DNA from: an uncultured Bacteroides sp.
GTDB lineage: Bacteria > Bacteroidota > Bacteroidia > Bacteroidales > Bacteroidaceae
NCBI GenBank assembly: GCA_945607605.1
Contig: CALYZE010000020.1
Location: 1-37,726, forward strand
Direction of reading: 5' to 3'
Length of the DNA: 37,726 nucleotides
Below, piece after piece: positions 11,501 to 37,726 of this stretch. Below the pieces are notes generated by a model. The model saw nothing but the letters and a program-made list of their open reading frames with translations, had not been told where the DNA came from and made no database searches. The first letter of the stretch is position 1; each line of letters opens with the position of its first letter. The translations under genes and the position numbers were made by a program.

Positions 11501-12629
11501 TTTTATAAAGGCTTATACCGTTGTTGGTAGCAAACCATAAATCTCCGTCTGCATCTTCAATAACTGCGTTGATTTGATCGTTAATGAGTGATTGCTTGTT
11601 GCCTATGGAGTGTTTAATCCATTCGAAATCTGAGAACTTGTTGTTACGTACGGTGATTCCCATGGGGTAGTTAACCATCCAGATACGTTGTTCTTCATCA
11701 ATGTATAAGTTAGTTATGGTATTCCCATTCATGGCATTCTGCCGATTGTAGTCGGCAATAATGTAGGGGACGCATTGGTAGGATTTTGTATCCATCTTAT
11801 AAACGCCGGCACCATCCGTAGCTATAAGAATCTCTTGGTCGTCAAAAGCCTTTATGCTATTGATACTTACATCCATCAGCCCGGCATCCAAGTGAGTGGC
11901 CTTTTGCAGGTTCCTATCATACACATACATTCCTCGTTGGAAGGTTCCGATAAATACTTTATTGGAACGTTTGTGGTAATATAATTCGTTGATTTGGATG
12001 TTTAAATCGTCTAATTGAATAAAAGGTTTTATTGTCAAGGAATTGTTTTGTAACTCGGCACAGTGGATGCCTGCATCTGTTCCAATGAAATAGTGTGTGG
12101 AATCTATTTGTGCAATGCTCGTGATGCTTTCCTTGAATTCGTTTTTAATGAATGTGACTTTGTGTGTTTGGCTGTTGTATAGGTACAAAGTGTCTTCACT
12201 GCAAAGCCATACTCTATGATGGCTATCTACAAAACTATAGCTGATAGGTGTAGGGCGACCTTTTACTTCACTTTCGGGTATCTTGTAAACCAACTGGAAG
12301 CGGTCGTGTTTGGCATCATAACGAAACACTCGTCCTTTCTTTCCAATTTGCCATAATCCTCCTGTAGAATCGAGATAAAGCCAATTCAGATTCATAATCG
12401 CATTAATGCTCTCGTCGCCATCTGTCAGCTTATATTGCTTGAAATCTTTTCCGTCGTAGCGATCAATGCCATCATGGGTGAGAAACCACATATAGCCTTT
12501 GTTATCTTTCTGGATAGCATATACTCTTCGGTTGCTTAATCCATTTTCTACCCCGATATATTCGTATGTCTGAGCAATGCTTGTAAATGGAAGTAATAGT
12601 AGTATGCAGTATAATAAGTGTTTTCGCAT
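8592..12629 (-). CDS. Hybrid two-component system regulator (propeller sensor, histidine kinase, receiver, AraC-type HTH)
   Basis: The product is 1345 aa, the full length for Bacteroides HTCS proteins. Residues 1-19 are a signal peptide. About 25-690 are two-component propeller repeats (GLSNRRVYAIQKDNKGYMWF, DLWFATNNGI, HLWIGTSTGL). About 695-765 are a Y_Y_Y domain, and 771-793 a transmembrane helix. The kinase has the H-box NTAHDIRTP with His815, N-box Asn932 and DTGIGIP at 960-966. The receiver (about 1079-1195) has Glu1085/Asp1086, phospho-acceptor Asp1128 and Lys1180. About 1225-1330 is an AraC-type HTH. HTCS proteins normally sense oligosaccharides and switch on a polysaccharide-utilization locus. 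Here no SusC/D or glycoside hydrolase is adjacent in the unit, and the downstream genes are the CHR pair. All signalling residues look intact. Confidence 0.95.
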   Translation of the reverse strand: MRKHLLYCILLLLPFTSIAQTYEYIGVENGLSNRRVYAIQKDNKGYMWFLTHDGIDRYDGKDFKQYKLTDGDESINAIMNLNWLYLDSTGGLWQIGKKGRVFRYDAKHDRFQLVYKIPESEVKGRPTPISYSFVDSHHRVWLCSEDTLYLYNSQTHKVTFIKNEFKESITSIAQIDSTHYFIGTDAGIHCAELQNNSLTIKPFIQLDDLNIQINELYYHKRSNKVFIGTFQRGMYVYDRNLQKATHLDAGLMDVSINSIKAFDDQEILIATDGAGVYKMDTKSYQCVPYIIADYNRQNAMNGNTITNLYIDEEQRIWMVNYPMGITVRNNKFSDFEWIKHSIGNKQSLINDQINAVIEDADGDLWFATNNGISLYKSDTKQWHSFFSEFDAVPIKNNTFISLCEISPGIIWAGGHSSGIYQIDKKKLSVNYFTPTLYNKLNIRPDKYIRAMVKASDGKIWSGGYYNLKEIDYVHKDMRNFPGLNGITTIVEKDSEHLWIGTSTGLYILEKETGKYHQIQLPVDSYYIYSLCQTPDSLLYIGTENAGLLIYNATQNTFVHYHKDNSALMSNNIYTILYDDKRDLFLSTEGSLTRFNPKEKTFRNWTKDQGLKSSHFNAASGTLRKNGDLIFGSTDGAIEFNRDSRFSREYKFKMIFSDLRVFYQTVYPKDQGSPLTMDIDETETLRLKYNQNIFSLKVSSINYDDPSQILYSWKLEDSYDDWSRPDQENTIRFTNLSPGRYTLRIRAISNEDRRVVLEERSMQIIIEKPIWLSIWALVLYAIIIISIVSVTLRIIVMRKQRIVSDEKIRFFVNTAHDIRTPLTLIKAPLEELLERETLSENGHNNMNTALRNVNALLRLTTNLINFERADTYSSNLYVSENELSAYMEETINAFRSYAEIKHIALTYESNFRYLNVWMDKDKMDSILKNIISNALKYTPEGGKVHIYAAETEDSWSIEVRDTGIGIPSSEQKKLFKMHFRGSNAINSKVVGSGIGLLLVSKLVSRHKGRLNFNSTEGEGSNIKVTFPKGGKYYRKAIHQPQPSAERVIYTSSGVPVNATVPPIASYEKMKQLPPNNEDLPKILIVEDNDELREYLRNTLSETYNVQVCSNGKIALTIVKEYAPNLIISDIMMPEMRGDELCQALKNDIETSHIPIILLTALNTDRNIIEGLENGADEYIVKPFNIGILRATIANLLNNRALLRHKYANLELNDEKHDVGCINCSTDRDWKFIATVKKNVEENMNNPGFNVDVLCTLLNMSRTSFYNKITALTDEAPADYIRLIKLKRASLLLKEHKYTITEIAEMTGFNDAKYFREVFKDHFKMSPSQYAKQGTKSNEKKPKVSKE

Positions 12630-23440: not shown

Positions 23441-25276
23441 ATGAAAAAAGAAATTAAATTCAGTTTGGTATTCAGGGATATGTGGCAAAGTGCCGGAAAA
23501 TATGTACCCCGTGTGGACCAACTGGTAAAAGTAGCTCCTGCCATTGTTGAAATGGGTTGTTTTGCCCGCGTAGAAACCAATGGTGGAGGATTTGAACAAG
23601 TGAATCTATTGTTTGGAGAAAATCCCAATAAGGCTGTTCGTGAATGGACGAAGCCATTCCATAAAGCAGGTATTCAAACCCATATGCTAGACCGTGCTCT
23701 TAATGGTCTTCGTATGAGTCCGGTTCCTGCCGACGTACGTAAGTTGTTTTATAAAGTGAAGAAAGCCCAAGGCACGGATATCACACGTACTTTCTGCGGA
23801 TTGAACGATGTACGCAATATTATCCCCTCCATCACCTATGCCAAAGAGGCAGGGATGATTTCGCAATGTTCGCTTTGTATTACTCATTCTCCTATCCATA
23901 CAGTGGAGTATTACACCAATATGGCGTTGAAACTCATCAAGGCAGGTGCCGATGAAATCTGTATCAAGGATATGGCAGGTATCGGACGTCCGGTGTCGCT
24001 CGGTAAGATTGTAGCCAATATAAAGGCTGCTCATCCCGACATTCCGGTTCAGTATCACAGTCATGCAGGTCCGGGTTTCAACATGGCCAGTATTCTGGAA
24101 GTGTGTGAAGCCGGTTGCGACTATATCGATGTGGGTATGGAACCTCTTTCTTGGGGTACGGGACATGCTGATTTACTCAGTGTGCAGGCTATGCTGAAAG
24201 ATGCCGGCTTCCAAGTTCCTGAAATCAATATGGAGGCGTATATGAAGGTACGTGCTCTCGTTCAGGAGTTTATGGATGATTTCCTCGGATTGTATATCAG
24301 CCCGAAAAACCGTCTGATGAACTCTTTGTTGATTGCACCGGGGCTTCCGGGAGGAATGATGGGTAGTTTGATGGCCGACTTGGAAACGAACCTTGAGTCT
24401 ATCAATAAATACAAGGCAAAACGCAATTTGCCGTTTATGACACAAGATCAGTTACTCATCAAACTCTTCAATGAAGTAGCTTACGTTTGGCCGCGTGTAG
24501 GATATCCTCCGTTGGTAACTCCGTTCAGCCAGTATGTGAAGAATCTCTCCATGATGAACGTCATTGCGATGGAAAAAGGCAAGGAACGCTGGGGAATGAT
24601 TGCCGATGATATCTGGGATATGTTGCTGGGCAAGGCCGGAAAACTGCCGGGTGAATTGGCCCCTGAAATCATTGAGAAAGCCGAACGCGAAGGTCGCAAG
24701 TTCTTTACAGGCAATCCACAGGAGAATTATCCGGATGCGCTGGATAAATACCGCAAGTTGATGAAGGAAAATAAATGGGAACTTGGTGAAGACGATGAAG
24801 AGCTCTTTGAATACGCCATGCATCCGGCACAATATGAGGCTTATCAAAGTGGCAAAGCAAAAGAAGACTTCCTGGAGGATGTTGAAAAACGTCGTGCAGA
24901 AAGAGATAAGTCTCCATTGGATGATGCCAAACCCAAAACCCTGACTGTACAGGTAGACGGACAGGCATACCGCGTAACGGTAGCTTACGGTGATATCGAT
25001 CTGCCGGCTTCGGCAACGGAAATGGTGACTGCGCCCGTAGGTGAAGGCCAAGATGTGCCTGCTCCATTGGAAGGCAAGTTCTTCCTGACCAAGAATGCAC
25101 AAGAAACTCCGTTGAAGGTAGGAGATAAGGTAGAAAAAGGGGATCTTCTCTGTTATATTGAAGCCATGAAGACGTACAATGCTATCCGTGCCGACTTTGG
25201 TGGAACGGTTACTGCCATTTGCGTGAACTCAGGTGACTCTATTTCTGAAGATGATGTATTAATGAAAATTGGATAA
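23441..25276 (+). CDS. oadA: Oxaloacetate decarboxylase alpha-like chain: carboxyltransferase plus biotin carrier domain
   Basis: The product is 611 aa. The carboxyltransferase barrel (about 5-300) has FRDMWQS with metal ligand Asp13, CIKDMAG with Lys176, and YHSHAGPG with zinc ligands His206 and His208. A conserved middle domain with LPGGMMGSLMADLE follows, then a linker and a C-terminal biotinyl domain with EAMKT, Lys577 being the biotin site. It moves CO2 from a 2-oxoacid to biotin for the OadB pump. The barrel is divergent: canonical chains read LRDAHQS...RMRT and HTHSTSG-like motifs. Oxaloacetate is therefore the likeliest, but not the only possible, substrate. Its stop overlaps the oadB start by one base (TAATG). 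Confidence 0.88.
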   Translation: MKKEIKFSLVFRDMWQSAGKYVPRVDQLVKVAPAIVEMGCFARVETNGGGFEQVNLLFGENPNKAVREWTKPFHKAGIQTHMLDRALNGLRMSPVPADVRKLFYKVKKAQGTDITRTFCGLNDVRNIIPSITYAKEAGMISQCSLCITHSPIHTVEYYTNMALKLIKAGADEICIKDMAGIGRPVSLGKIVANIKAAHPDIPVQYHSHAGPGFNMASILEVCEAGCDYIDVGMEPLSWGTGHADLLSVQAMLKDAGFQVPEINMEAYMKVRALVQEFMDDFLGLYISPKNRLMNSLLIAPGLPGGMMGSLMADLETNLESINKYKAKRNLPFMTQDQLLIKLFNEVAYVWPRVGYPPLVTPFSQYVKNLSMMNVIAMEKGKERWGMIADDIWDMLLGKAGKLPGELAPEIIEKAEREGRKFFTGNPQENYPDALDKYRKLMKENKWELGEDDEELFEYAMHPAQYEAYQSGKAKEDFLEDVEKRRAERDKSPLDDAKPKTLTVQVDGQAYRVTVAYGDIDLPASATEMVTAPVGEGQDVPAPLEGKFFLTKNAQETPLKVGDKVEKGDLLCYIEAMKTYNAIRADFGGTVTAICVNSGDSISEDDVLMKIG

Positions 25277-26511
25277 TGGAAGATATATTTGCAAAACTCT
25301 ATGAAATGACGGCTTTCAGCAACATCATTGCCGATCCGTCATTCCTCGTGATGTATGCCATTGCTTTCCTTTTGCTGTATTTAGGAATCAAGAAACATTA
25401 TGAACCACTGTTGTTGGTGCCCATCGCTTTTGGTGTGCTTATTGCCAACTTCCCCGGTGGTGAAATGGGTGTGATTCAAGCAGATGAAAATGGAATGGTT
25501 ATGGTAGGCGGGGCATTGAAGAACATTTGGGATATGCCGTTGCATGAGATTGCACACGACCTTGGACTGATGAACTTCATTTATTATATGTTGATTAAGA
25601 CCGGGTTCTTGCCGCCTATCATCTTTATGGGTGTGGGAGCGTTGACAGATTTCGGTCCGATGCTTCGTAATTTACGACTCTCTATCTTTGGCGCGGCTGC
25701 ACAGCTCGGCATCTTTACGGTATTGCTTTGTGCTGTGATGATAGGATTTACTCCACAAGAGGCTGGTGCTTTGGGTATTATTGGTGGTGCTGATGGCCCG
25801 ACAGCTATCTTTACGACCATAAAACTGGCTCCTCATTTGTTGGGTCCAATTGCCATTGCTGCTTACTCTTACATGGCTTTGGTTCCGGTCATCATTCCGC
25901 TGGTAGTAAAACTATTTTGCAGCAAGAAGGAGTTGATGATTAATATGAAGGAACAGGAGAAACTTTATCCTTCAAAGACTGAGATTAAGAATCTACGTGT
26001 ATTGAAGATTATTTTCCCAATTGCGGTTACCACGGTTGTGGCCTTGTTTGTACCTACGGCTGTGCCTTTGATTGGTATGCTGATGTTTGGTAACTTGATT
26101 AAGGAAATCGGTTCTGATACAAGCCGCCTGTTTGATGCGGCTGCCAACAGTATTATGAATGCAGCTACCATCTTCTTAGGCTTGAGTGTAGGGGCTACCA
26201 TGACCAGTGAGGCATTCTTGAACTGGACTACGATAGGCATTATAATCGGAGGTTTCTTGGCATTTGCTTTGTCCATTACGGGAGGCATCTTCTTTGTGAA
26301 ACTGTTCAACTTGTTTAGCAAGAAGAAGATTAATCCACTGATTGGGGCTACCGGACTAAGTGCGGTGCCTATGGCGAGTCGTGTTTGTAATGACATCGCT
26401 ACGAAGTATGATCCGAAGAATCATGTGTTGAATTATTGTATGTCTAGTAATATTTCCGGTGTGATCGGTTCTGCGGTAGCAGCGGGTGTACTGATCTCGT
26501 TCTTGGGATAA
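25276..26511 (+). CDS. oadB: Sodium-ion-translocating decarboxylase beta subunit (OadB)
   Basis: The product is 411 aa, an integral membrane protein with about nine to eleven helices. It decarboxylates carboxybiotin and pumps sodium out of the cell, conserving energy in anaerobic fermentation to succinate and propionate. The hallmark IIGGADGPTAIF includes Asp173, a candidate sodium ligand; GALTDFGPML and NISGVIGSAVAAGVL are also family motifs. The gene is translationally coupled to oadA by TAATG. The same family serves methylmalonyl-CoA decarboxylase, but the fused carboxyltransferase-biotin alpha chain favours the 2-oxoacid type. A terminator follows 20 bp downstream. Confidence 0.95.
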   Translation: MEDIFAKLYEMTAFSNIIADPSFLVMYAIAFLLLYLGIKKHYEPLLLVPIAFGVLIANFPGGEMGVIQADENGMVMVGGALKNIWDMPLHEIAHDLGLMNFIYYMLIKTGFLPPIIFMGVGALTDFGPMLRNLRLSIFGAAAQLGIFTVLLCAVMIGFTPQEAGALGIIGGADGPTAIFTTIKLAPHLLGPIAIAAYSYMALVPVIIPLVVKLFCSKKELMINMKEQEKLYPSKTEIKNLRVLKIIFPIAVTTVVALFVPTAVPLIGMLMFGNLIKEIGSDTSRLFDAAANSIMNAATIFLGLSVGATMTSEAFLNWTTIGIIIGGFLAFALSITGGIFFVKLFNLFSKKKINPLIGATGLSAVPMASRVCNDIATKYDPKNHVLNYCMSSNISGVIGSAVAAGVLISFLG

Positions 26512-26625: not shown

Positions 26626-28938
26626 TCAATCTGCCAAGGCTATTTTTAACTCTGCTCCTTGTTTGAGTGTGTATATGTCTTGATAGACTTGAATCTCTTG
26701 TTTGTTTCCTGCTGTAAGTGAGATCTTCATTTCTTTTCCTATTTGCATGTGGAAAGTGCTTCCTAAATAGTTTACTTTGAAGGAATAGCTGTTCCACTTC
26801 TTTGGCAACACCGGTGAAAAACTGATGATTCCGTTGCGTATCTGTAGTCCGGCAAAACCCTGTACTATTGCGAGCCAACTGCCTGGCATACTGGTGATAT
26901 GCAGACCTTGGGCGGCTTCATTGTTATAGTCGTCCAAATCGAGCCGAGTCGTGTGCAGAAAGTGCTCATACGCTTTATCTATCTTGCCGATGCGCGCTGC
27001 GAGAATGGAGTGTATGTGTGGAGAGAGAGAAGACTCATGAACGGTCATCGGTTCATAGAACTCAAAGTTTCGGCGGATAGTATCTGTGTCGAAGTCAAAG
27101 GAGTAGAGGTAAAGCCCTAATAACACGTCACTCTGCTTGATGTAGCAAGAACGAAGAATCCTGTCCCATGACCAATGTTGATTGATAGGACGTTGCTCTT
27201 TGGGGATGGCGTCTGTACTTTGCAGTTCTTTGTCCATGTAACCGTCATTTTGAATAAAGATGCCTTGTTCGGTATCTTCAGGCAGGTACATATGTTCTAT
27301 GATGTTTCTCCAACGTTCGGTTTCTTCAGCTTGATTGAAATTGGTAATACGACGCACACGGACGTATTCATCAGGACTCTTCTGGGCAATGATCTCAAGA
27401 TAGTTTAAAGTCATCTTCAAGCATTGTATGCAAGAATAATTCGTATACCAGTTATTGTCCACATTGTTTTGATATTCATCCGGCCCGGTAACCCCTAAGA
27501 TGACATATTTCTGTTTGGGGCGAGAGAAGGATACACGTTGACTCCAGAAACGGCTGATGGCTATCATCACTTCCAATCCGTATTTAGCGATGTATTCCAA
27601 TGAACCGGTCAAGGTAGCTTGTTGAGTGATGGCATAGACCATTATGTTGTTTCGGTGGATTTCTTCAAAAGTAATTTCCCACTCACTGTGACACTCCTCA
27701 CCGTTGTTCGTGACTTGTGGAAAAAGTGCCGCACCATTACTGAAACCTAATTTCTTGGCATTTTCTATGGCTTTCGGTAGTTGGTTATACCGATAGATCA
27801 ATAAATTCTTGACAATCTCCTTGGGAGTGGAAAGCAGAAAGTAAGGAACGCAACATAGTTCTGTATTCCAATACGTGTTCCCACCATACTTTTCTCCAGT
27901 GAAACCTTTGGGAGCAATGTTGAGACGGGGGTCGTCTCCTCGATACGTTTGATAGAGTTGGAATATGTTATACCGAATGCCTTGCTGAGCTTCCGGGTCA
28001 CCTTCAATAAGAACGTCGGCTTCGTCCCAAATGTCCTGCCAGGCTTGTTGATGATCTTTTAAGAGAGCATCCCAACCGCTCGTTTGGGCTTGTCGAGCTT
28101 GTGAAATGGATTCCTCAATCAAGTCTTGCCGTTCATAGTAGAGGGAGGAGACAATGGAGACATATTTGATCAGTGTTACGGTATCGCCGGGTTTTACATC
28201 TGCACCTACGCTGAATCCGGCTTGTTTCTCTTTCTCTATACGTATCGGGTTCGTCATGGGTTCTTGGTTGTTTTTAAAGAACTGATACGTCATGGCATAG
28301 CAGATTTGAGCATCCTCACGACGAGTCTGCGTCCATAGGTAGGCAGAATCGCTGGTGGCTCTGGAGCGCAGAATATTCCAGATCTTCTCATCGGAGTTTT
28401 TGGACTCATTGGCGATATCTCCATCAAGAAGAGGGACTAAAGATACTTTGCCGCTATAGTTGAGAGAGGTTACGCTATATTTGATAAGACAGAGATTGGG
28501 ATGGGCCATGTTTGTGAGATGTTCTACATGAAGGCTGAGCTGGTTGCCACTGGGCGAAGTCACTTCTACATCCCGATAAGAGACTCCTTCTTTCATGCTC
28601 AAGCATCTTTTGAAATGATTGACATACCATCCTGCTAAATCCAGCTCTTCGTCAATGAGTCGAAGGCTGATGTGGCTCCAGTCTATTGCATTGGGTACGC
28701 GGGTGTAAAAATGTGGGAATCCGTTCTTCCACCATTCCACCTTGGTTTTGTCTAAGAATGTGATGCCGGCTACGAAAGAACCGCGATAACTATCACTACT
28801 ATAAGGCTCCTCGAAATTCCCTCGTTGTCCGAAACGTCCGTTCCCGAGGCTGAATATACTTTCCGACATTCTCAAATAATCGGCGTGAAAGTTATCTTCA
28901 ATAATGTTCCATTCATCGGTCTTCAGATATTTCTTCAT
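26626..28938 (-). CDS. GH65-family disaccharide phosphorylase (maltose-phosphorylase-like)
   Basis: The product is 770 aa with no signal peptide, so cytoplasmic. Parts are an N-terminal beta-sandwich with SLGNGRFGQRGNFEE, an (alpha/alpha)6 barrel and a small C-terminal sheet. The catalytic acid is Glu488 in TGPDEYQNNVDNNWYTN. The phosphate-site motif HESSLSP is present, which favours phosphorylase over hydrolase. The family cleaves alpha-glucosides (maltose, kojibiose, nigerose, trehalose) to beta-glucose-1-phosphate. The usual YWDTE motif reads YWNTE, with Asn358 where Asp is normally found near the -1 subsite. It is third after lacI and the MFS gene, but a hairpin (29043-29094) and a weak -7 box (28966-28973) in the 216-bp gap allow independent expression. 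No beta-phosphoglucomutase is nearby. Confidence 0.9.
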   Translation of the reverse strand: MKKYLKTDEWNIIEDNFHADYLRMSESIFSLGNGRFGQRGNFEEPYSSDSYRGSFVAGITFLDKTKVEWWKNGFPHFYTRVPNAIDWSHISLRLIDEELDLAGWYVNHFKRCLSMKEGVSYRDVEVTSPSGNQLSLHVEHLTNMAHPNLCLIKYSVTSLNYSGKVSLVPLLDGDIANESKNSDEKIWNILRSRATSDSAYLWTQTRREDAQICYAMTYQFFKNNQEPMTNPIRIEKEKQAGFSVGADVKPGDTVTLIKYVSIVSSLYYERQDLIEESISQARQAQTSGWDALLKDHQQAWQDIWDEADVLIEGDPEAQQGIRYNIFQLYQTYRGDDPRLNIAPKGFTGEKYGGNTYWNTELCCVPYFLLSTPKEIVKNLLIYRYNQLPKAIENAKKLGFSNGAALFPQVTNNGEECHSEWEITFEEIHRNNIMVYAITQQATLTGSLEYIAKYGLEVMIAISRFWSQRVSFSRPKQKYVILGVTGPDEYQNNVDNNWYTNYSCIQCLKMTLNYLEIIAQKSPDEYVRVRRITNFNQAEETERWRNIIEHMYLPEDTEQGIFIQNDGYMDKELQSTDAIPKEQRPINQHWSWDRILRSCYIKQSDVLLGLYLYSFDFDTDTIRRNFEFYEPMTVHESSLSPHIHSILAARIGKIDKAYEHFLHTTRLDLDDYNNEAAQGLHITSMPGSWLAIVQGFAGLQIRNGIISFSPVLPKKWNSYSFKVNYLGSTFHMQIGKEMKISLTAGNKQEIQVYQDIYTLKQGAELKIALAD

Positions 28939-29154: not shown

Positions 29155-30531
29155 TTATTTATCTGTTTTTTCTCCTTCGCTCTCTTTGATGAAATATACA
29201 CAAATGGCACCGATTATCAACATCACTCCGGCAGTAATCAACATATTGATTTCAGGGGGTAGTGCCCCTTCCGGAGTGAAATAGGCGAGTATTGTGCCAC
29301 CTAAAGTAGCTGCCACGATTTGTGGAATACAGATGGTTCCGTTGAAGAGGCCTAAATAAGTACCCATGTGTCCGCCCGACAAAGCATTGGTAAGGATGGT
29401 AAATGGCAATGCCAGCATGGCCGCCCATGCACAACCTATCAGCAGATAGGATATAAACAAGAGATACGGGTCGTGCATGAAATAGGTGGAAATGAATCCT
29501 ATACCTCCCAACACAAGGCTGAGGGAGTAGACGAAACGGCGGTCTTTAAACATCGGAATACAGATAGCCCAAAGTACGGAACCGATAGCCTGGACGGCGA
29601 AGAGCACACCTACCCAGTTGGCTGCTTCTTGATATTCTAAACTTTTGGTGTCGAGCACAATCCGGTTGATGCCGTTTACTGTATGTTCTACAGTCGGTGC
29701 ATCGAATGCATTGGCTGCGATACTGCCGTTTGTATAAGTCCACATGAACATAAATGCAAACCAGCAAAAAAACTGTACCAATCCTACTGTCCAGAAAGCC
29801 TTGGGAGCCTTGACGAGCAGTTTTAATAGATTGGTCTTTTCATGCTTTTGGTCTTCTGTGATGCCATGATATTCAGCATATTCGGCGGGGGGCATTTCTT
29901 TGACCTTCATCGAGGTATAGATTACACAGAATATAAGGATGGCAGCTCCAATATAGAAAGAATAGATCACAGAATCAGGAATAACACCCTGTGATGCTGT
30001 ATTACTGATGCCTATCCAGGCAAAGATAAACGGGAACAAGTATCCTACCAAACTACCTGCATTGCAAAGAAAACTTTGAATGGAGTAGGCGAGTCCTTTC
30101 TGTTTCTCATTGACCATATCTCCCACCATCATTTTGAAAGGCTGCATGGCCATATTGATGGAAGTATCGAGGAACATTAAAGATACTAATCCAAATATCA
30201 TAGCGGTACTTACTGCCATACCGAAACTACCGGCATTGGGCAATAGGCACATGACTAATACGGCTACCAAGGAACCGATAAAAAGATAGGGAATGCGACG
30301 TCCGAAGCGTGTCCATGTCTTGTCGCTGGCCACACCTACTATAGGTTGCACAATGATACCTGCCAACGGAGGCAATATCCAGAAGTAACTTAAATTATGT
30401 GGGTCGGCTCCAAGTGTGGAGAAAATACGGCTAATGTTTGCGCTTTGCAACGCATACGCAATCTGTACGCCGAAAAAACCGAAGCTGATGTTCCACAGCT
30501 TCCAGAAACTTAAATCGGGTTTTACTTTCAT
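29155..30531 (-). CDS. MFS sugar transporter (SLC45/GPH-like sugar:cation symporter)
   Basis: The product is 458 aa with twelve predicted membrane helices. The N-terminus FWKLWNISFGFFGVQIAYAL and the loop GVASDKTWTRFGRRIPYLF are characteristic of the sucrose/maltose proton-symporter-like branch of the major facilitator superfamily. It presumably imports a disaccharide across the inner membrane to the GH65 phosphorylase encoded next. It follows lacI by 23 bp, so the two are one transcript. Substrate is inferred from neighbours only: an alpha-glucoside would suit GH65, while a galacto-oligosaccharide would suit the divergent GH53/GH2 genes. Confidence 0.9.
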   Translation of the reverse strand: MKVKPDLSFWKLWNISFGFFGVQIAYALQSANISRIFSTLGADPHNLSYFWILPPLAGIIVQPIVGVASDKTWTRFGRRIPYLFIGSLVAVLVMCLLPNAGSFGMAVSTAMIFGLVSLMFLDTSINMAMQPFKMMVGDMVNEKQKGLAYSIQSFLCNAGSLVGYLFPFIFAWIGISNTASQGVIPDSVIYSFYIGAAILIFCVIYTSMKVKEMPPAEYAEYHGITEDQKHEKTNLLKLLVKAPKAFWTVGLVQFFCWFAFMFMWTYTNGSIAANAFDAPTVEHTVNGINRIVLDTKSLEYQEAANWVGVLFAVQAIGSVLWAICIPMFKDRRFVYSLSLVLGGIGFISTYFMHDPYLLFISYLLIGCAWAAMLALPFTILTNALSGGHMGTYLGLFNGTICIPQIVAATLGGTILAYFTPEGALPPEINMLITAGVMLIIGAICVYFIKESEGEKTDK

Positions 30532-30554: not shown

Positions 30555-31559
30555 TTATTTCGTTGTTCCTCTCACTACCAAGTTAGTGCGTACAATTCGG
30601 TTAGGGCTCTTTTCTTTCCCTTCCAACTTGTTTATCAGGATGCTGAAGGCGCTTCTGCCTACTTCCTCACCATGTTGCTCTACGGTGGTCAGTTTGGGGT
30701 CAGTACTTTGTGCAATGGCTCCGTCGGTAAACCCGCAGATGGACACTTCGTCTGGAACTTTGAGCCCTACTAACTTACAAGCGTATAGAATGCCTGATGC
30801 TGTTTCATCGTTGATGGCAAAGAAACCGTCGGGACGATTGACCCCTTCCAGTAGATCGGGAGTCAATGCAATGGCACGTTCACGAGTGTCACAAAGTAGT
30901 ATCATACTGTCATCTACCGGGATTTTATATTTCTTCATGGCATCCAAATAACCGTTGCGGCGGTTCTTGGTGATTTCCAGATGAGGGGCAGCTCCATAGA
31001 AGAGGATGCGCTTACAGCCGGTTTGTATCATGTATTCTACGGCGGCAAAGGAGCCGGCATAGTCATCTACTACCACGCGTTCGGTCTTCAAACCTGTACA
31101 GATGCGGTCATAGAAAACGATGGGAATATTGTTGTGCAGTAATTCTTGGTAATGGTCGTATTGTGCTGTATCTTTCGCTAAAGAGGCAATCACTCCACAG
31201 ACACGGGCGGCAAAGAAAGAATGTACAATCTTTACTTCTTGCTCATACGACTCGTTGCTTTGTGCCACAATAATGTTGTAGCCGGCTTCGGCAGCCGATC
31301 TCTCTATTCCACTCAATACACAAGAGAAAAAATGATGTACTAATTGCGGGATAATGACTCCGATTGTATTGCTACGGCTGGCGCGGAGGTTTACGGCAAG
31401 TACGTTTGGCTTATAATTATGTTCACGCGCATAGGCATGGATCAGGTCGCGAGTCTCCTGACTGATGTCCGGATTGTCTTTCAGTGCCCTTGACACTGTG
31501 GAGGGTGAGACGCTTAACGCCCGGGCAATGTCCTTAATGGTTATCTGCGGTTTATTCAT
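30555..31559 (-). CDS. LacI-family transcriptional regulator
   Basis: The product is 334 aa. The N-terminal HTH ITIKDIARALSVSPSTVSRA is followed by the hinge YKPNVLAVNLRASRSNTIGV, then a periplasmic-binding-protein-like effector domain to residue 334, full family length. It is a cytoplasmic sugar-responsive DNA-binding protein and first gene of the lacI-MFS unit. The divergent region it shares with GH53 contains a 14-bp LacI-type site (31749-31762). The reverse complement of that site recurs upstream of susC (35676-35689), so its regulon probably includes both sides. Whether it represses or activates is not settled; site placement ahead of the promoters hints at activation. Confidence 0.95.
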   Translation of the reverse strand: MNKPQITIKDIARALSVSPSTVSRALKDNPDISQETRDLIHAYAREHNYKPNVLAVNLRASRSNTIGVIIPQLVHHFFSCVLSGIERSAAEAGYNIIVAQSNESYEQEVKIVHSFFAARVCGVIASLAKDTAQYDHYQELLHNNIPIVFYDRICTGLKTERVVVDDYAGSFAAVEYMIQTGCKRILFYGAAPHLEITKNRRNGYLDAMKKYKIPVDDSMILLCDTRERAIALTPDLLEGVNRPDGFFAINDETASGILYACKLVGLKVPDEVSICGFTDGAIAQSTDPKLTTVEQHGEEVGRSAFSILINKLEGKEKSPNRIVRTNLVVRGTTK

Positions 31560-31588: not shown

Positions 31589-31748
31589 ATGCAAATTGAA
31601 AACAGAGAGTCCAATTTACTTGAACTTTATGTTCAGATGCAACTTATCTCCTTTAAAATTAAAGGCGAACTTGGTTAATCTGATTGCAAAAATAACGGAA
31701 TATGGTAAAATGCACTTATTCATTGATATATATCGAAGCGTTAGTTCG

Positions 31749-31762
31749 TGCAAACGATTGCA
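31749..31762 (+). promoter_or_regulatory. LacI-family operator upstream of GH53
   Basis: TGCAAACGATTGCA has TGCAA/TTGCA arms around a centre containing CG. It fits the LacI-type cre pattern TGWAANCGNTNWCA at all but two symmetric positions. It starts 72 bp before the GH53 -7 box and about 160 bp from the lacI -7 box. The rest of 31560-31851 shows no gene. Confidence 0.75.
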
Positions 31763-31820
31763 TATGATTGTTCTTTTGATAATAGTGAATAGGATATTAG
31801 GCGTATCTAGTCTAATTTCT

Positions 31821-31828
31821 TATATTTG
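31821..31828 (+). promoter_or_regulatory. GH53 -7 element
   Basis: TATATTTG is an exact TAnnTTTG, 23 bp before ATG 31852. No TTG occurs 19-21 bp upstream, consistent with a promoter that needs an activator. Confidence 0.65.
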
Positions 31829-31851
31829 CGATTTACAAAATTAGAGTAATC

Positions 31852-33027
31852 ATGAGATACATTAAACTTTTAACTTTTCTTTTTCTTGTTGCTTTGGTAG
31901 CCATAGCATGTGGTAATCAAAATGAAAAAGATCCAAATGAGGATGGTCATCCGGATGATGGAAACACTTCTGTTGCTGGTTTTGCTCAAGGCGCAGATAT
32001 CAGTTGGGTAACAGAAATGGAGCAAAAAGGGATGAAGTTTTATAATACTGAAGGAAAAGCAACCGACTGCTTCCAATTGATGAAAGACCTTGGTTTGAAT
32101 GCTGTCCGCCTTCGGGTTTGGGTAAATCCTGACAAACATGGCAACTGGTGTGATAAGGATGACTTTTTAGTGAAAGCAAAGCGGGCTGCAAAACTGGGAA
32201 TGGATGTGATGGTTGACTTTCATTATAGTGATTGGTGGGCTGATCCGGGTCAGCAGCATAAACCGGCTGCTTGGAAAGGGAAGTCGCTTGTTGAACTGAA
32301 ACAAGCCATTGCCGATCATACCCAAGATGTGCTCAATGCATTGAAATCTGCAGGAATAACACCCAAGTGGGTACAAGTGGGCAATGAAATCCGTCCGGGC
32401 ATGTTGTGGGATGAAGATGTTGCTTTAAGCGGTGCTTCATACGATGTGAGAGAATGTGATGTGAAAGATTCCGGTAGTACTTCTACTAAAGTGAAATATC
32501 CTAAGAACTTTGCCAATCTGGCTACTTTTATCAATGCAGGCTATGATGCTGTGAAAGCTGTTTTCCCGAGTTCCATTGTCATTGTTCATTTGGATAACGG
32601 ATATGATCAATCCTTATATAATTGGTTCTTCGACGAGTTGAAAAAGAACAGTGGAAAGTGGGATATGATAGGTATGTCCATTTATCCTTACTGGACAATG
32701 CTTGAACATAAAGAGTATACACCTGAGAGAACCATTACCGAATGCATCGACAATATAAAGAAGGTGAGTACCAAGTATAATTGTGATGTGATGATAGTGG
32801 AAACAGGAATGGAATGTGCGGATACTAAAGGCCAGTTGGCTACTGCCTCTATTCTGCAAGAAGGAAAAAAACAACTGACTCGTCTTTTGAAGGAGTGTCG
32901 TGAGAACACGAATGACCGTTGTAAGGGGGTATTTTATTGGGAGCCTGAGTGCAGACCCAGTCAATACCGATTGGGAGCATTTACTGAAAACGGTTATCCT
33001 ACTGTGATAATGGATGCTTTTAAATAA
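31852..33027 (+). CDS. GH53 arabinogalactan endo-beta-1,4-galactanase, surface lipoprotein
   Basis: The product is 391 aa with a lipoprotein signal, lipid Cys20 (VAIAC). The following stretch is rich in Asp, Glu and Asn, as in surface-exported Bacteroidetes lipoproteins. The GH53 barrel shows GADISWVTEMEQKG, NAVRLRVWVNP, MVDFHYSDWWADPG, acid/base Glu179 in WVQVGNEIRPG, and nucleophile Glu317 in VETGMEC. It cuts internal beta-1,4-galactosyl bonds of pectic galactan outside the cell. It is first of a two-gene unit with GH2 (31 bp downstream), and the same pair occurs in the known B. thetaiotaomicron galactan locus. A LacI-type operator and a -7 box precede it. Confidence 0.95.
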   Translation: MRYIKLLTFLFLVALVAIACGNQNEKDPNEDGHPDDGNTSVAGFAQGADISWVTEMEQKGMKFYNTEGKATDCFQLMKDLGLNAVRLRVWVNPDKHGNWCDKDDFLVKAKRAAKLGMDVMVDFHYSDWWADPGQQHKPAAWKGKSLVELKQAIADHTQDVLNALKSAGITPKWVQVGNEIRPGMLWDEDVALSGASYDVRECDVKDSGSTSTKVKYPKNFANLATFINAGYDAVKAVFPSSIVIVHLDNGYDQSLYNWFFDELKKNSGKWDMIGMSIYPYWTMLEHKEYTPERTITECIDNIKKVSTKYNCDVMIVETGMECADTKGQLATASILQEGKKQLTRLLKECRENTNDRCKGVFYWEPECRPSQYRLGAFTENGYPTVIMDAFK

Positions 33028-33058
33028 TACATTTATTAAATAGAATTTGAAAAAAGAG

Positions 33059-35533
33059 ATGAAACGAATCATATTTATCTATGCCTATTGCTTCCTTTTT
33101 ACTTTGATGGGCATGGCGCAAAGACAAGAATGGGCACTGGAGAAAAACTGGAAGTTTACAAAAGGAGATGTTTCTGAAGCCTCACAGATAAGCTTTGATG
33201 ATCGTCAGTGGGAAACGGTAACGATTCCGCATGATTGGGCTATCTTTGGTCCTTTTGATCGTAACAACGATTTGCAAGAGGTGACGGTTACACAAAACTT
33301 TGAAAAGAAAGCAACGGTGAAGACCGGGCGTACCGGTGGGCTGCCTTATGTAGGGATTGGTTGGTACCGAACTAAATTTGATACGCCTGTAGGCAAACAG
33401 ATCACTTTGATTTTTGATGGTGCGATGAGTGAAGCACGTGTTTACGTGAATGGAAAAGAAGCTTGCTTTTGGCCTTTCGGTTATAATTCTTTCCATTGCG
33501 ATGTGACTGAGTTTCTGAATGCAGATGGCAAAGAGAATGTACTTGCTGTACGTTTGGAAAATAAGCCTCAGTCTTCACGTTGGTATCCGGGAGCGGGGCT
33601 ATATCGCAATGTACATGTCGTGGCTACAGAAGAAGTACACGTACCTGTTTGGGGTACGCAACTGACCACTCCACATGTTGCGGATGATTATGCGGCTGTA
33701 CGGCTGCTGACTACCGTTGAAGGTTCCGGTGATAAAGATATTCGTATTCTGACGCATATTATTTCTCCTGACGACAAGGTGGTGGCTACCAAAGATAACA
33801 CTCGTAAGATAAACCATGGACAGCCTTTTGAACAAAACTTCTTGGTCAATGCTCCTTCTTTATGGTCGCCAGAGACACCTTATTTATATAAGGCAGTTTC
33901 CAAAATATATATTGATGGCAAACAAGTTGATGAATATACTACTCGTTTTGGCATCCGTAGCATTGAAATTATAGCTGACAAAGGCTTTTACCTAAATGGC
34001 AAACATCGCAAATTCCAAGGCGTATGCAATCACCATGATCTCGGACCGTTAGGGGCTGCTGTTAACGTGGCTGCTCTTCGTCGTCAGCTCACTTTGTTGA
34101 AGGATATGGGATGTGACGCCATTCGTACGGCTCATAATATGCCAACTCCCGAATTGGTGGAACTGTGTGATGAGATGGGTTTTATGATGATGGTAGAGCC
34201 TTTTGATGAATGGGATATTGCCAAGTGTGCCAATGGTTATCATCGTTATTTCAATGACTGGGCCGAAAAAGACATGGTTAATATGTTGCGGCATTATCGC
34301 AACCATGCCAGCGTGGTCATGTGGAGCATTGGTAATGAAGTACCTACCCAATGCAGTCCCGTAGGTTATAAGGTCGCTTCTTTTCTGCAGGATATTTGTC
34401 ACCGCGAAGATCCTACTCGTCCTGTAACCTGTGGTATGGATCAGGTTTCTTGTGTACTGGCCAATGGCTTTGCTGCCATGATTGATGTGCCCGGTTTGAA
34501 TTACCGTGCGCATCGGTATGTAGAATCGTACGAAAAGTTGCCTCAGAATATAGTACTTGGCTCGGAAACGGCTTCTACAGTGAGCTCACGTGGAGTTTAT
34601 AAATTCCCGGTGGAACTAAAGAAGCAGGTGGTTTATGAAGATCATCAGAGTTCAGGTTATGATACAGAGGCTTGTTCATGGTCAAACGTGCCTGATGAAG
34701 ATTTTGCTTTAGCGGATGACTATAACTGGACTATTGGGCAGTTTGTTTGGACGGGCTTTGATTACCTGGGTGAACCTTCTCCGTATGATACAGATGCTTG
34801 GCCTAGTCATAGTTCTGTGTTTGGTATCATCGATTTGGCAAGTCTTCCGAAAGACCGCTACTATTTGTATCGCAGTGTGTGGAATAAAGATGCGAATACT
34901 TTGCATGTCCTGCCTCATTGGACTTGGCCGGGCAGAGAAGGAGAGAACACGCCTGTCTTTGTTTATACCAATCACCCCAGTGCTGAATTGTTTGTCAATG
35001 GCAAAAGCTTCGGTAAACAACGTAAACTTAGCATGGAAGAAAGCCGTGCTTTGGTAGGGAAAGATTCTCTTGCTCTACAACGCCGTTATCGTCTGATGTG
35101 GATGGATGTGCCCTATGAACCGGGTGAAATAAAAGTAGTAGCCTACGATAAAAATGGCAAATCAATAGAAGAGAAAGTGGTTCGTACCGCTGGTAAACCC
35201 CATCATTTGGAAGTAGTGACCGATCGTACTCAACTTTCTGCCGATGGAAAAGACTTGGCGTACATCACAGTCCGCGTAGTCGATAAAGAGGGCAATCTTT
35301 GCCCGGCAGATCATCGCATGATTCATTTTTCAGTGAAGGGGGCAGGGCAATATCGTGCAGCGGCCAATGGAGATGCAACCAGTCTTGATTTATTCCATTT
35401 ACCTAAAATGCCTGCTTTTAGTGGTCAGCTGACAGCCATTGTTCAAAGTAAAGAAGAGATAGGAGAGATTGTGTTTGAAGCTAAGGCTAAAGGAGTAAAA
35501 CCTGCTAAACTTATTCTTTCTTCTGCGAAATAG
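33059..35533 (+). CDS. GH2 beta-galactosidase
   Basis: The product is 824 aa from ATG 33059, which starts the signal peptide (MKRIIFIYAYCFLF, ending MGMA). A TTG four codons upstream is less likely. Order: N-terminal sugar-binding sandwich (WKF, IPHDWAI), immunoglobulin-like domain, catalytic barrel with acid/base about Glu427 (MWSIGNEVPTQ) and nucleophile about Glu503 (LGSETAST), then a DUF4982-like domain (VFVYTNHPSAELFVNGKSFG) and a C-terminal Ig-like domain (HHLEVVTDRTQLSADGKD). It probably removes terminal galactose from galacto-oligosaccharides in the periplasm, next to the GH53 enzyme. Strict substrate is inferred from context, since GH2 also includes mannosidases and glucuronidases. 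Confidence 0.93.
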   Translation: MKRIIFIYAYCFLFTLMGMAQRQEWALEKNWKFTKGDVSEASQISFDDRQWETVTIPHDWAIFGPFDRNNDLQEVTVTQNFEKKATVKTGRTGGLPYVGIGWYRTKFDTPVGKQITLIFDGAMSEARVYVNGKEACFWPFGYNSFHCDVTEFLNADGKENVLAVRLENKPQSSRWYPGAGLYRNVHVVATEEVHVPVWGTQLTTPHVADDYAAVRLLTTVEGSGDKDIRILTHIISPDDKVVATKDNTRKINHGQPFEQNFLVNAPSLWSPETPYLYKAVSKIYIDGKQVDEYTTRFGIRSIEIIADKGFYLNGKHRKFQGVCNHHDLGPLGAAVNVAALRRQLTLLKDMGCDAIRTAHNMPTPELVELCDEMGFMMMVEPFDEWDIAKCANGYHRYFNDWAEKDMVNMLRHYRNHASVVMWSIGNEVPTQCSPVGYKVASFLQDICHREDPTRPVTCGMDQVSCVLANGFAAMIDVPGLNYRAHRYVESYEKLPQNIVLGSETASTVSSRGVYKFPVELKKQVVYEDHQSSGYDTEACSWSNVPDEDFALADDYNWTIGQFVWTGFDYLGEPSPYDTDAWPSHSSVFGIIDLASLPKDRYYLYRSVWNKDANTLHVLPHWTWPGREGENTPVFVYTNHPSAELFVNGKSFGKQRKLSMEESRALVGKDSLALQRRYRLMWMDVPYEPGEIKVVAYDKNGKSIEEKVVRTAGKPHHLEVVTDRTQLSADGKDLAYITVRVVDKEGNLCPADHRMIHFSVKGAGQYRAAANGDATSLDLFHLPKMPAFSGQLTAIVQSKEEIGEIVFEAKAKGVKPAKLILSSAK

Positions 35534-35561
35534 ATATACGAAGAATAAGAAGACGTTTTTT

Positions 35562-35602
35562 CATCCCTATTCCATTGAATTTTGATTCATGGGGTAGGGA
35601 TG
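35562..35602 (+). terminator. Hairpin between GH2 and susC
   Basis: CATCCCTATTCCAT (35562-35575) pairs with ATGGGGTAGGGATG (35589-35602) through 14 bp with two G-U wobbles, 13-nt loop. No strong T-tract follows, so read-through is possible. It probably separates GH53-GH2 from susC. Confidence 0.6.
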
Positions 35603-35675
35603 AATGGTTATTGTTCATAATTATTTGTTTGATTACTTGGCTGATCCTTTTCTTTTCTTTTCCGAGGGAGTTTAG

Positions 35676-35689
35676 TGCAATCGTTTGCA
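35676..35689 (+). promoter_or_regulatory. LacI-family operator upstream of susC
   Basis: TGCAATCGTTTGCA is the exact reverse complement of the site at 31749-31762. The outer bases also match: both read GTGCAA-N4-TTGCAT on the plus strand. It starts 69 bp before the -7 box at 35745. The region 35534-35855 otherwise holds only the hairpin and promoter. Confidence 0.75.
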
Positions 35690-35717: not shown

Positions 35718-35752
35718 TTTGTTTTTTACTAAACTAATAAAACATATTTTTG
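35718..35752 (+). promoter_or_regulatory. Possible susC promoter
   Basis: TATTTTTG (35745-35752) is an exact TAnnTTTG. TTTG at 35718-35721 lies 23 bp upstream, a little far. It would leave a leader of about 95 nt. A second, poorer -7 candidate, TAACTTTA, lies at 35835-35842. Confidence 0.5.
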
Positions 35753-35855: not shown

Positions 35856-37726
35856 ATGAAGCAAGTAAATCTTAGAGTCTATCAAACGATTCTTACCCTA
35901 GTTTTAGGGTTATTCTTGTCAGTTGGCGCTTATGCACAAGATATCACAGTGAAAGGGCATGTCAAAGATGCCTTTGGTGCCGTGATAGGCGCAAGTGTTG
36001 TAGAAAAAGGAAATGCTACCAATGGTACAATCACCGATCTGCATGGTAACTTTTCGTTGAAAGTCTCCAGAGGCTCTACTTTGGTTATTTCTTTCATAGG
36101 CTATAAAACCCAAGAAGTAGTCGCTGCTTCCAGCATTGATGTTACTTTGCAAGAAGATACTGAGATGTTGGACGAAGTGGTTGTGATTGGTTATGGTGTA
36201 GCCAAGAAGAATGACTTGACTGGTTCTGTTACTGCTATTAAACCAGACGAAATGAACAAAGGTTTAGTAACGAATGCACAAGACATGATGCAAGGTAAAA
36301 TTGCCGGTGTCAATGTGACAAGTGGTGGTGGTACGCCGGGTGGTGGTGCTACGATTCGTGTGCGTGGTGGATCTTCTCTGAATGCAAGTAATGAACCTCT
36401 GGTGGTAATTGATGGTTTGGCAATGGACAATCAAGGTGTAAAAGGCCTCGCCAATCCTTTGTCAATGGTAAATCCTGCAGATATTGAGACTTTCACCGTG
36501 TTGAAAGATGCTTCCGCTACAGCTATTTATGGTTCTCGCGGTTCTAACGGTGTGATCATTATTACTACAAAAAAAGGACGTAGCGGAGCTAAACCTGCTA
36601 TTACTTATAATGGAAATGTATCTGTGAGCACCAAGAAAAAAACAGTAGATGTGTTGAGCGGTCAAGAGTTTGGTGAATTTGTTGAAAACACGTATGGCAT
36701 AGGCAGTGATGCTTGGAAGTTTTTGACTATTCAAAGTGGAAAGGTCGGTTCTAGGCCGGTATCTTTGAAAAATGGAAACTTTCGGAAAGTAGACGATAAC
36801 GGTCTGCTTGCTGAATATGACAAAGATGATAACTTCTTGCATTACATGTATAACAACACCGATTGGCAAGATGAAATCTATCGTACAGCTCTGAGCCACG
36901 ATCATAACGTTACGGTTTCAGGTGGTTTGAAAAATATGCCTTATCGTCTTTCTTTAGGCTATACAAACCAGGAAGGTATTCTAAAAACTTCTAATTTTGA
37001 GCGTTATACAGCTTCTATCAATGTTTCTCCTAAATTCTTCGATGAACATTTAACTGTGAATTTGAATGCCAAAGGTATGATTGCTAACAATCGTTATGCA
37101 GATGGTGACGCTATCGGAGCAGCTATATACATGAATCCTACTTTCGCTGTTCGCAATTCCAGTGACATTCTAACTAAGTACTTTGGTGGATACACTCAGT
37201 GGGTATCAGATGGTTCTGCATTGAATGACCCTGCTTGGCCTTACACTTCTAACCGTAATGCTACCAAAAATCCGGTGGCTACATTGGATTTGAAAGATGA
37301 TACAGCTAATTCTAAATCATTCATTGGTAATGTTGAACTGGATTATAAAGTTCACGGCTTGGAAGATTTGCGTTTACACATGAATCTTGGCGGTGACTTC
37401 TCAACCGGTAAGCAAACTACAATGATTTCTCCTTATTCTGTTTCAAACAACTACTATGGTTGGAATGGCTGGGAAAAGATTTATAAGTATAACAAGATGT
37501 TGAATGCTTATGCCCAATATAATAAGGAATTCAACAAAATACATCATTTTGATATTATGGGTGGTTATGAGTGGCAACATTTTTATCACAGAGGTGAAAG
37601 AGATGGTTGGGGACTCTATCAAATGACGAATACAGAAAAACCTGGTGAAAAATACCAGCGTGATGCTAAGATATGGAAGAGTGAAAACTATTTGGTTTCC
37701 TTCTTTGGACGTGCGAACTATTCTTT
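35856..37726 (+). CDS. SusC-family TonB-dependent outer-membrane receptor, partial (runs off the window end)
   Basis: At least 623 codons are open from ATG 35856 to the window edge; full SusC proteins are about 1000 aa. The start is read directly from the sequence. Residues 1-27 are a signal peptide (ending GAYA), followed by a carboxypeptidase-regulatory-like domain (about 29-100), a TonB-box-like DEVVVIGYG (106-114), and a plug domain with MMQGKIAGVNVTSGGGTPGG, TIRVRGGSSLNAS and DASATAIYGSRGSNGVII. The barrel begins after about residue 240. It imports oligosaccharides over the outer membrane with a SusD partner, expected just beyond the window. With GH53 and GH2 upstream, galacto-oligosaccharides are the likely cargo (inference). 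Confidence 0.95.
   Translation, partial: MKQVNLRVYQTILTLVLGLFLSVGAYAQDITVKGHVKDAFGAVIGASVVEKGNATNGTITDLHGNFSLKVSRGSTLVISFIGYKTQEVVAASSIDVTLQEDTEMLDEVVVIGYGVAKKNDLTGSVTAIKPDEMNKGLVTNAQDMMQGKIAGVNVTSGGGTPGGGATIRVRGGSSLNASNEPLVVIDGLAMDNQGVKGLANPLSMVNPADIETFTVLKDASATAIYGSRGSNGVIIITTKKGRSGAKPAITYNGNVSVSTKKKTVDVLSGQEFGEFVENTYGIGSDAWKFLTIQSGKVGSRPVSLKNGNFRKVDDNGLLAEYDKDDNFLHYMYNNTDWQDEIYRTALSHDHNVTVSGGLKNMPYRLSLGYTNQEGILKTSNFERYTASINVSPKFFDEHLTVNLNAKGMIANNRYADGDAIGAAIYMNPTFAVRNSSDILTKYFGGYTQWVSDGSALNDPAWPYTSNRNATKNPVATLDLKDDTANSKSFIGNVELDYKVHGLEDLRLHMNLGGDFSTGKQTTMISPYSVSNNYYGWNGWEKIYKYNKMLNAYAQYNKEFNKIHHFDIMGGYEWQHFYHRGERDGWGLYQMTNTEKPGEKYQRDAKIWKSENYLVSFFGRANYS

Follow-up and report, generated by a model that had tools for sequence, protein, structure and literature searches.

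The window analysed here, a 37,726-nucleotide stretch of an uncultured Bacteroides sp. genome (contig CALYZE010000020.1 of assembly GCA_945607605.1), encodes a lacI-MFS-GH65 unit on its reverse strand and GH53, GH2 and susC genes on its forward strand. The lacI gene (30555–31559, reverse strand) encodes a 334 amino acid LacI-family regulator that is probably an activator. Its Pfam LacI (56.9 bits, cut-off 27) and Peripla_BP_3 (104.7 bits, cut-off 26.5) domains both scored above the cut-off, which places it in the LacI/GalR family by its helix-turn-helix and periplasmic-binding-like domains; its closest solved structure was CcpA. The MFS sugar transporter of the unit (29155–30531, reverse strand, Pfam MFS_1) scored far under the cut-off of the NCBIfam sucrose/proton symporter model. 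The GH65 gene (26626–28938, reverse strand, Pfam and structure match) probably encodes a maltose phosphorylase, as it showed 648 bits to the maltose phosphorylase 1h54 against 384 bits to kojibiose phosphorylase. Carboxylase/biotin carrier and Na+-transporting decarboxylase beta genes (23441–26511) adjoin GH65 in the window, and the decarboxylase beta gene was also found beside GH65 in a number of relatives.

GH53 (31852–33027, forward strand) was identified by Pfam and by 283 bits to 6gp5/6gpa as an endo-beta-1,4-galactanase; by eye, its translation has the look of a lipoprotein signal at the N-terminus. GH2 (33059–35533, forward strand) is a beta-galactosidase by Pfam, with 721 bits to 5t98 and 895 bits to the NCBIfam GalB model, just below the cut-off of 900. 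Its open reading frame was listed from a TTG at 33047, the ATG at 33059 being the preferred start, and its N-terminus looks exported. The window therefore carries both the GH53 and the GH2 enzymes of a pectic galactan PUL.

The susC gene (35856–37724, forward strand) is cut by the contig end. Its reading frame continues on contig C66 (locus L153), the start of which is an exact 55 bp copy of the window's last bases. Following susC on C66 were susD, susE, a 497 amino acid gene without a Pfam match and an 859 amino acid GH13 with a BACON domain. SusE and GH13 were above their Pfam cut-offs, and the best NCBIfam model for the susD product was starch SusD (515 bits, under the cut-off of 725). In the relative L070 this row closes with SusF and a CBM58-bearing SusG (SusCDEFG). 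As susC runs into susD, susE and GH13, it is of the starch type, and the SusC, SusD, SusE-like and GH13 row of a Sus locus is present; a galactan SusC was ruled out by this gene content and by the L070 row. The initial annotation had taken GH53, GH2 and susC for one galactan locus and had called the coupling of galactan use to GH65 unusual. Neither point was supported, because with a starch-type susC the pairing with MFS-GH65 is an ordinary maltose/starch set. The oddity that remains is the presence of GH53-GH2 within an alpha-glucan regulon, which is unusual. A search with PF20756 (CBM58) found no match in the window's own genome, nor in the control genomes, and the L070 SusG used as a query gave only partial GH13 matches in the own genome.

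Two exact matches to the operator motif were found in the window, at the positions initially reported. Operator 1, TGCAAACGATTGCA (31749–31762), lies between the divergent lacI and GH53 promoters, and operator 2 (35676–35689), ahead of susC, reads TGCAATCGTTTGCA on the forward strand, the reverse complement of TGCAAACGATTGCA. The excerpt of PMC7366714 gives TAnnTTTG as the published Bacteroides -7 element, with TTTG near -33. A GH53 promoter -7 box, TATATTTG (31821–31828, forward strand), begins 72 bp after the start of operator 1, and a susC promoter -7 box, TATTTTTG (35745–35752, forward strand), begins 69 bp after the start of operator 2, so the distances of 72 and 69 bp first proposed hold. 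A third promoter had been overlooked: that of lacI is built in the same way on the opposite strand via operator 1, its -7 box (31687–31694, reverse strand, TATTTTTG) lying 68 bp from that operator. The architecture is thus common to three promoters of the window (lacI, GH53 and susC) and not to two. In the window, the susC box is preceded by a TTTG at 23 bp and the GH53 box by one at 42 bp. An alignment of promoters of relatives, composed only of promoters chosen for an exact box at 66–74 bp, had no conserved -33 TTTG, which agrees with the earlier remark that a proper -33 is lacking.

The genome from which the window was taken comprises 2,654,578 bases in 116 contigs. Exact TGCAAACGWTTGCA occurred at two places in this 2.65-Mb genome, both in the window and 3.9 kb apart, and its reversed control pattern gave 0 matches. 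The looser TGCAAN4TTGCA was found at 10 places. A genome search for GTGCAA-N4-TTGCAT, which had been proposed as a check, returned one exact match, and allowing up to three mismatches in GTGCAA...TTGCAT gave 41 matches against 17 for the reversed control. Among 19 loci fetched from the latter search, a box at 60–79 bp was present at the window's two sites only. Within the window, the motif relaxed to at most three mismatches matched 7 times against 4.79 expected, and 27 of 100 shuffles reached 7; this count is at the level of chance, so significance rests on the exact matches. Relaxed matching was discarded as evidence on that count and on the failure of the genome matches to give a further box-bearing site among the fetched loci. 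A chance motif was ruled out by the exact-match, spacing and composite-pattern counts when set against reversed controls or background.

Conservation was examined in 158 genomes of the genus, with the LacI gene called at E<=1e-80 and present in 86 of them. Exact sites occurred in 77/158 genomes against 6/158 for the reversed control. An exact site was present in 73 of the 86 genomes with the LacI gene and in 4 of the 72 without it (Fisher 4e-26, not corrected for relatedness); in these four the sites precede a starch-type susC, and completeness is <90% for three of them. Without preselection by locus, each of the 108 exact sites in the genus listing was examined, and 107 had an exact TAnnTTTG at 67–73 bp on at least one side, mostly at 68 or 69 bp, where the background is 0.0046 per position. 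Boxes at 67–73 bp on both sides were seen at 31 of the 108, and the sole exact site without such a box was in L245.

Analysis of 85 lacI loci (84 fetched loci and the window, a partial LacI match in G048 being outside this set) revealed an operator with at most two mismatches near lacI in 75, and an exact lacI-side box at 67–69 bp in 71 of these 75. Half of the ten loci without an operator (L120–L124) encode the most divergent LacI proteins in the genus (60–69%). Where susC lay ahead, 47 of 49 relatives had the site and 41 of these had a box at 68 or 69 bp; adding the window itself and five loci whose box goes with a second site closer by brought the susC side to 47/50. Outside the first 84 loci, 33 of 38 had an exact site ahead of susC, SusG or GH13 by best BLAST match, L262 had the lacI side only, and L243, L245, L248 and L249 were without gene identification. 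In L116–L119, which encode LacI proteins 71–75% identical by BLAST, two operator-like sites 21–22 bp apart (about two helix turns) were found ahead of lacI.

The site was also followed to more distant LacI proteins. The named-locus set held the best 80 of 145 loci, 25 of which have a LacI protein 57–69% identical; these belong to Paludibacter, other Bacteroidales or Bacteroidota, and Hoylesella marshii. Every one of the 25 had a site (at most two mismatches) with a box at 68 or 69 bp on the side away from lacI, where genes were unannotated in this count, and 21 also had a lacI-side box at 66–68 bp. The CG-centred palindrome and its co-occurrence with LacI fit the pattern of the family, and the proposal that these are LacI-type operators is borne out to the extent that the motif is of the right kind and goes with a divergent LacI gene.

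The operator core and the box were then combined in one composite pattern (operator core, N53-60, TAnnTTTG), which was found in 93/158 genomes, the reversed control in 0/158. There were four composite matches in the own genome, three forward and one reverse, which fit the three promoters of the window (lacI, GH53, susC) plus a single site on contig C69. The C69 site was read from the contig itself, as the matches listed in the composite search did not include the own genome. On C69 (locus L277, 2830–2905), TGCAAACGTTTGCC stands 68 bp before TATATTTG, ahead of a susB/GH97 gene with 1193 bits to SusB 2d73. By operator type and spacing, the SusB (GH97) of a Sus system would thus belong to the regulon, its co-regulation being predicted. 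Twenty extra places were picked by hand, 19 among the matches listed and C69 from the mismatch search. Thirteen of the 20 precede GH97 at 68 or 69 bp; the other seven comprised one susC, one glycogen synthase, one other LacI gene and four without a clear gene. As the pattern finds susB without any starch input, this is the strongest evidence for a regulon. A GH13 frame on the own contig C108 was not explained by the four composite matches of the own genome.

Some composite sites lay in other settings. The glycogen synthase gene (L290, genome G065) was preceded by the operator core at a 70-bp spacing. In L291 (G011; similar in G012 and G041), a related site followed by GGGAACGTTCCC lies ahead of another LacI-family gene and probably belongs to a different LacI regulon. 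Additionally, L284 (G017) and L285 (B. fragilis Q1F2) had the operator core and 68-bp spacing with no alpha-glucan gene identified alongside; the next open reading frame in L285 was a glycerate kinase, 432 bp away.

The sites, their geometry, their conservation, their co-occurrence with lacI and the gene content were all observed directly. The sites very probably serve as operators in an alpha-glucan (maltose/starch) regulon with the LacI protein at 30555–31559 as its regulator, a reading in which binding, maltose as the ligand, activation and the expression of GH53 are predictions from sequence. Probably in response to maltose or a similar sugar, the LacI protein would bind TGCAAwCGwTTGCA and activate promoters whose sole clear core element is the TAnnTTTG -7 box, typically spaced 68–69 bp from the operator start. 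The operator centre would then lie roughly 70–75 bp upstream of the transcription start, a class-I-like position, and a single operator could drive two divergent promoters. Predicted targets in the own genome are lacI-MFS-GH65, susCDE-...-GH13 and susB (GH97). GH53-GH2, lodged between lacI and the starch susC, would have come under operator 1, with co-activation probable but perhaps weaker.

For GH53 there is another explanation, namely that operator 1 serves lacI only and that GH53-GH2 is a mere neighbour with its own or no specific regulation. The spacing in the window favours this explanation, being 72 bp where the norm is 68 or 69 bp and where B. fluxus GH53 has 69 bp; 3 bp is about a third of a helix turn. 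A box at 67–73 bp was also absent from 10 of 23 GH53/GH2-first loci with an operator, six of which have a box at 93–102 bp instead. Against it, such a box was present in 13 of the 23 (the window included) and in none of 19 loci in which an HTCS or another gene comes first after lacI (Fisher 4.6e-5; the comparison omits 30 susC-first loci, three at contig edges and ten without an operator, two of them GH2-first). Among relatives with GH53 and an operator, the box stood at 68–73 bp in 11/21. The idea that LacI controls GH53 is supported in that the geometry is right in 13 of 23 comparable loci, and weakened in that the window lies 3 bp off the norm. The 13/23 against 0/19 makes capture of GH53 by the starch regulator likely in this Bacteroides branch, as judged from promoter architecture.

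The search for a regulator specific to galactan bears on the same question. In L255, L264, L270 and L271, B. cellulosilyticus and B. timonensis being among the four relatives, a fuller set of susC-susD-SGBP-GH53-GH2 adjoins the operator-bearing starch-type susC, and from its neighbour genes the extra susCD is inferred to serve galactan. These genomes encode, on the lacI side, an HTCS 69–73% identical to that of L042. HTCS genes thus stand beside galactan genes in some relatives, in keeping with the background given initially that galactan loci of this type are HTCS-driven. The L042 HTCS had no match in the own genome at E<=1e-60, so a galactan-type HTCS, as represented by that protein, is lacking. 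No orthologue of the L255 galactan susD was found there either, the best match (38%) being the starch susD, and matches to the L255 galactan susC were no higher than 48% local identity; by comparison with the L255 versions only, GH53-GH2 has no SusC/SusD pair of its own. The window does encode an HTCS (8592–12629), which speaks for separate regulation of GH53-GH2. The distance to it is 19 kb, and its identity to the L042 HTCS is just 22%; this low identity, with the failure of the L042 protein to find a match, speaks against such regulation. This HTCS gene stands beside two chromate transporter genes, and no susCD was seen alongside. Service of lacI alone by operator 1 is accordingly a possibility we take seriously but hold to be the less probable, and co-activation of GH53 in this organism is, on its promoter geometry, moderately probable. 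GH53-GH2 is perhaps the remnant of a galactan locus. The fuller-set GH53 was ~48–49% identical and the GH2 84–85%, figures that bear on whether GH53-GH2 is a remnant or an arrival.

Most LacI-family proteins repress, and the LacI protein could likewise be a classical repressor that silences susC, lacI and GH53 in the absence of a releasing sugar, perhaps through a DNA loop joining the two sites, which are 3.9 kb apart. The operators, however, stop about 55 bp short of the -7 box at a near-invariant distance, a fixed phase that repression at such a distance would not need, and the -33 is not conserved. Looping between two near sites is countered by the 30 susC-first loci, 23 of which have a single operator near lacI and boxes at 67–69 bp on both sides. 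In the alignment of promoters, chosen for exact boxes, the spacing was constant within 1–2 bp while the intervening DNA varied. A class-I-like contact between regulator and polymerase needs fixed spacing and repression does not, so the fixed spacing from single sites and the absence of a conserved -33 argue for activation, as the initial annotation had suggested from the upstream distance; repression is unlikely. Between operator and box, the susC promoters of relatives had a conserved TTT tract with 1.67 bits at the centre, 37–39 bases ahead of the -7 box, and the lacI side had ATA where the susC side has this tract; these could be a contact of the polymerase alpha-subunit.

The reading first put forward, of one galactan locus with its own SusC under LacI control, draws on GH53, GH2 and susC being adjacent and co-directional and is highly improbable, as susC leads to a starch-type susD, susE and GH13, 30 relatives have susC directly beside lacI with no GH53 or GH2 between, and the L255 galactan susD has only the starch susD (38%) as its best match here.

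A wider form of the activator model is put forward tentatively, at a little less than even confidence. Across Bacteroidales, the LacI protein would be a dedicated class-I-type activator with a rigid architecture (operator start 66–70 bp before TAnnTTTG, no -33), acting bidirectionally from single sites as the starch/maltose counterpart of B. thetaiotaomicron SusR, and in one Bacteroides branch it would have captured the GH53/GH2 of a decaying galactan locus. If so, a starch cue would drive pectic-galactan digestion in that branch. The operator and promoter rule is testable for a regulator present in 86/158 genomes of the genus. On this reading, the locus would be a clear example of a LacI-family protein acting from a fixed activating position, and of regulatory capture where sugar genes have come to lie between a regulator and its operon.

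Among the closest known systems is Osu of B. fragilis. OsuR, reportedly described by Spence et al. in J Bacteriol in 2006, is said to activate in response to maltose and to be required for growth on starch and on maltose. In B. fragilis S82 and Q1F2 (L183 and L230), an orthologous lacI-MFS is divergent from susC-susD-susE/F-like-GH13, with a one-mismatch operator and boxes at 69 bp on both sides. The gene order is that of osuABCD/OsuR, and OsuR may be the orthologous LacI protein. The B. fragilis loci differ in having no GH53; in S82 GH65 is more distant, and no GH65 turned up within the 21 kb fetched of Q1F2.

CcpA is a LacI-family protein with an activating role. Cra is described as another in the excerpt of PMC4052901. 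Compared with these dual regulators, nearly every site examined here has one operator-to-box spacing. The Sus system of B. thetaiotaomicron with SusR and MalR, as outlined in part of PMC12632263, shares SusC, SusD, SusE, SusB (GH97), GH13 and a maltose-type cue, the difference being the LacI-family regulator in this genome. HTCS-driven pectic galactan loci (BT4667-4673, and the S. copri galactan PUL of the PMC11784079 excerpt) share GH53 and GH2; they differ in that the own genome has no L042 HTCS or L255 galactan susD orthologue. A literature search of titles and abstract openings found no prior description of the operator or its geometry, and none of a LacI starch regulon that includes GH53.

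In the summary given by PMC11633381 (mBio 2024), B. fragilis and B. uniformis have LacI, MFS and GH65 in sus loci that lack SusR. Gene content is shared with the present locus, and that description, as far as it goes, includes no operator, mechanism or GH53. The same source summarises B. cellulosilyticus as having four sus loci without LacI, MFS or GH65, and two SusR homologues. These homologues leave the dominant regulator in B. cellulosilyticus to be either one, and may count against control of starch genes by LacI alone. For each genome, the rule proposed here predicts targets, among them starch genes remote from lacI; B. cellulosilyticus is such a case. A 794,779-base contig of B. cellulosilyticus DSM 14838 (G006) carries an operator-bearing starch-type susC at 490.6 kb and a lacI-MFS-GH65 unit whose lacI lies at 515.0 kb. 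The published summary and this locus would agree if inserted genes hide the link, and galactan-type genes were indeed found between the lacI unit and susC, which are ~24 kb apart.
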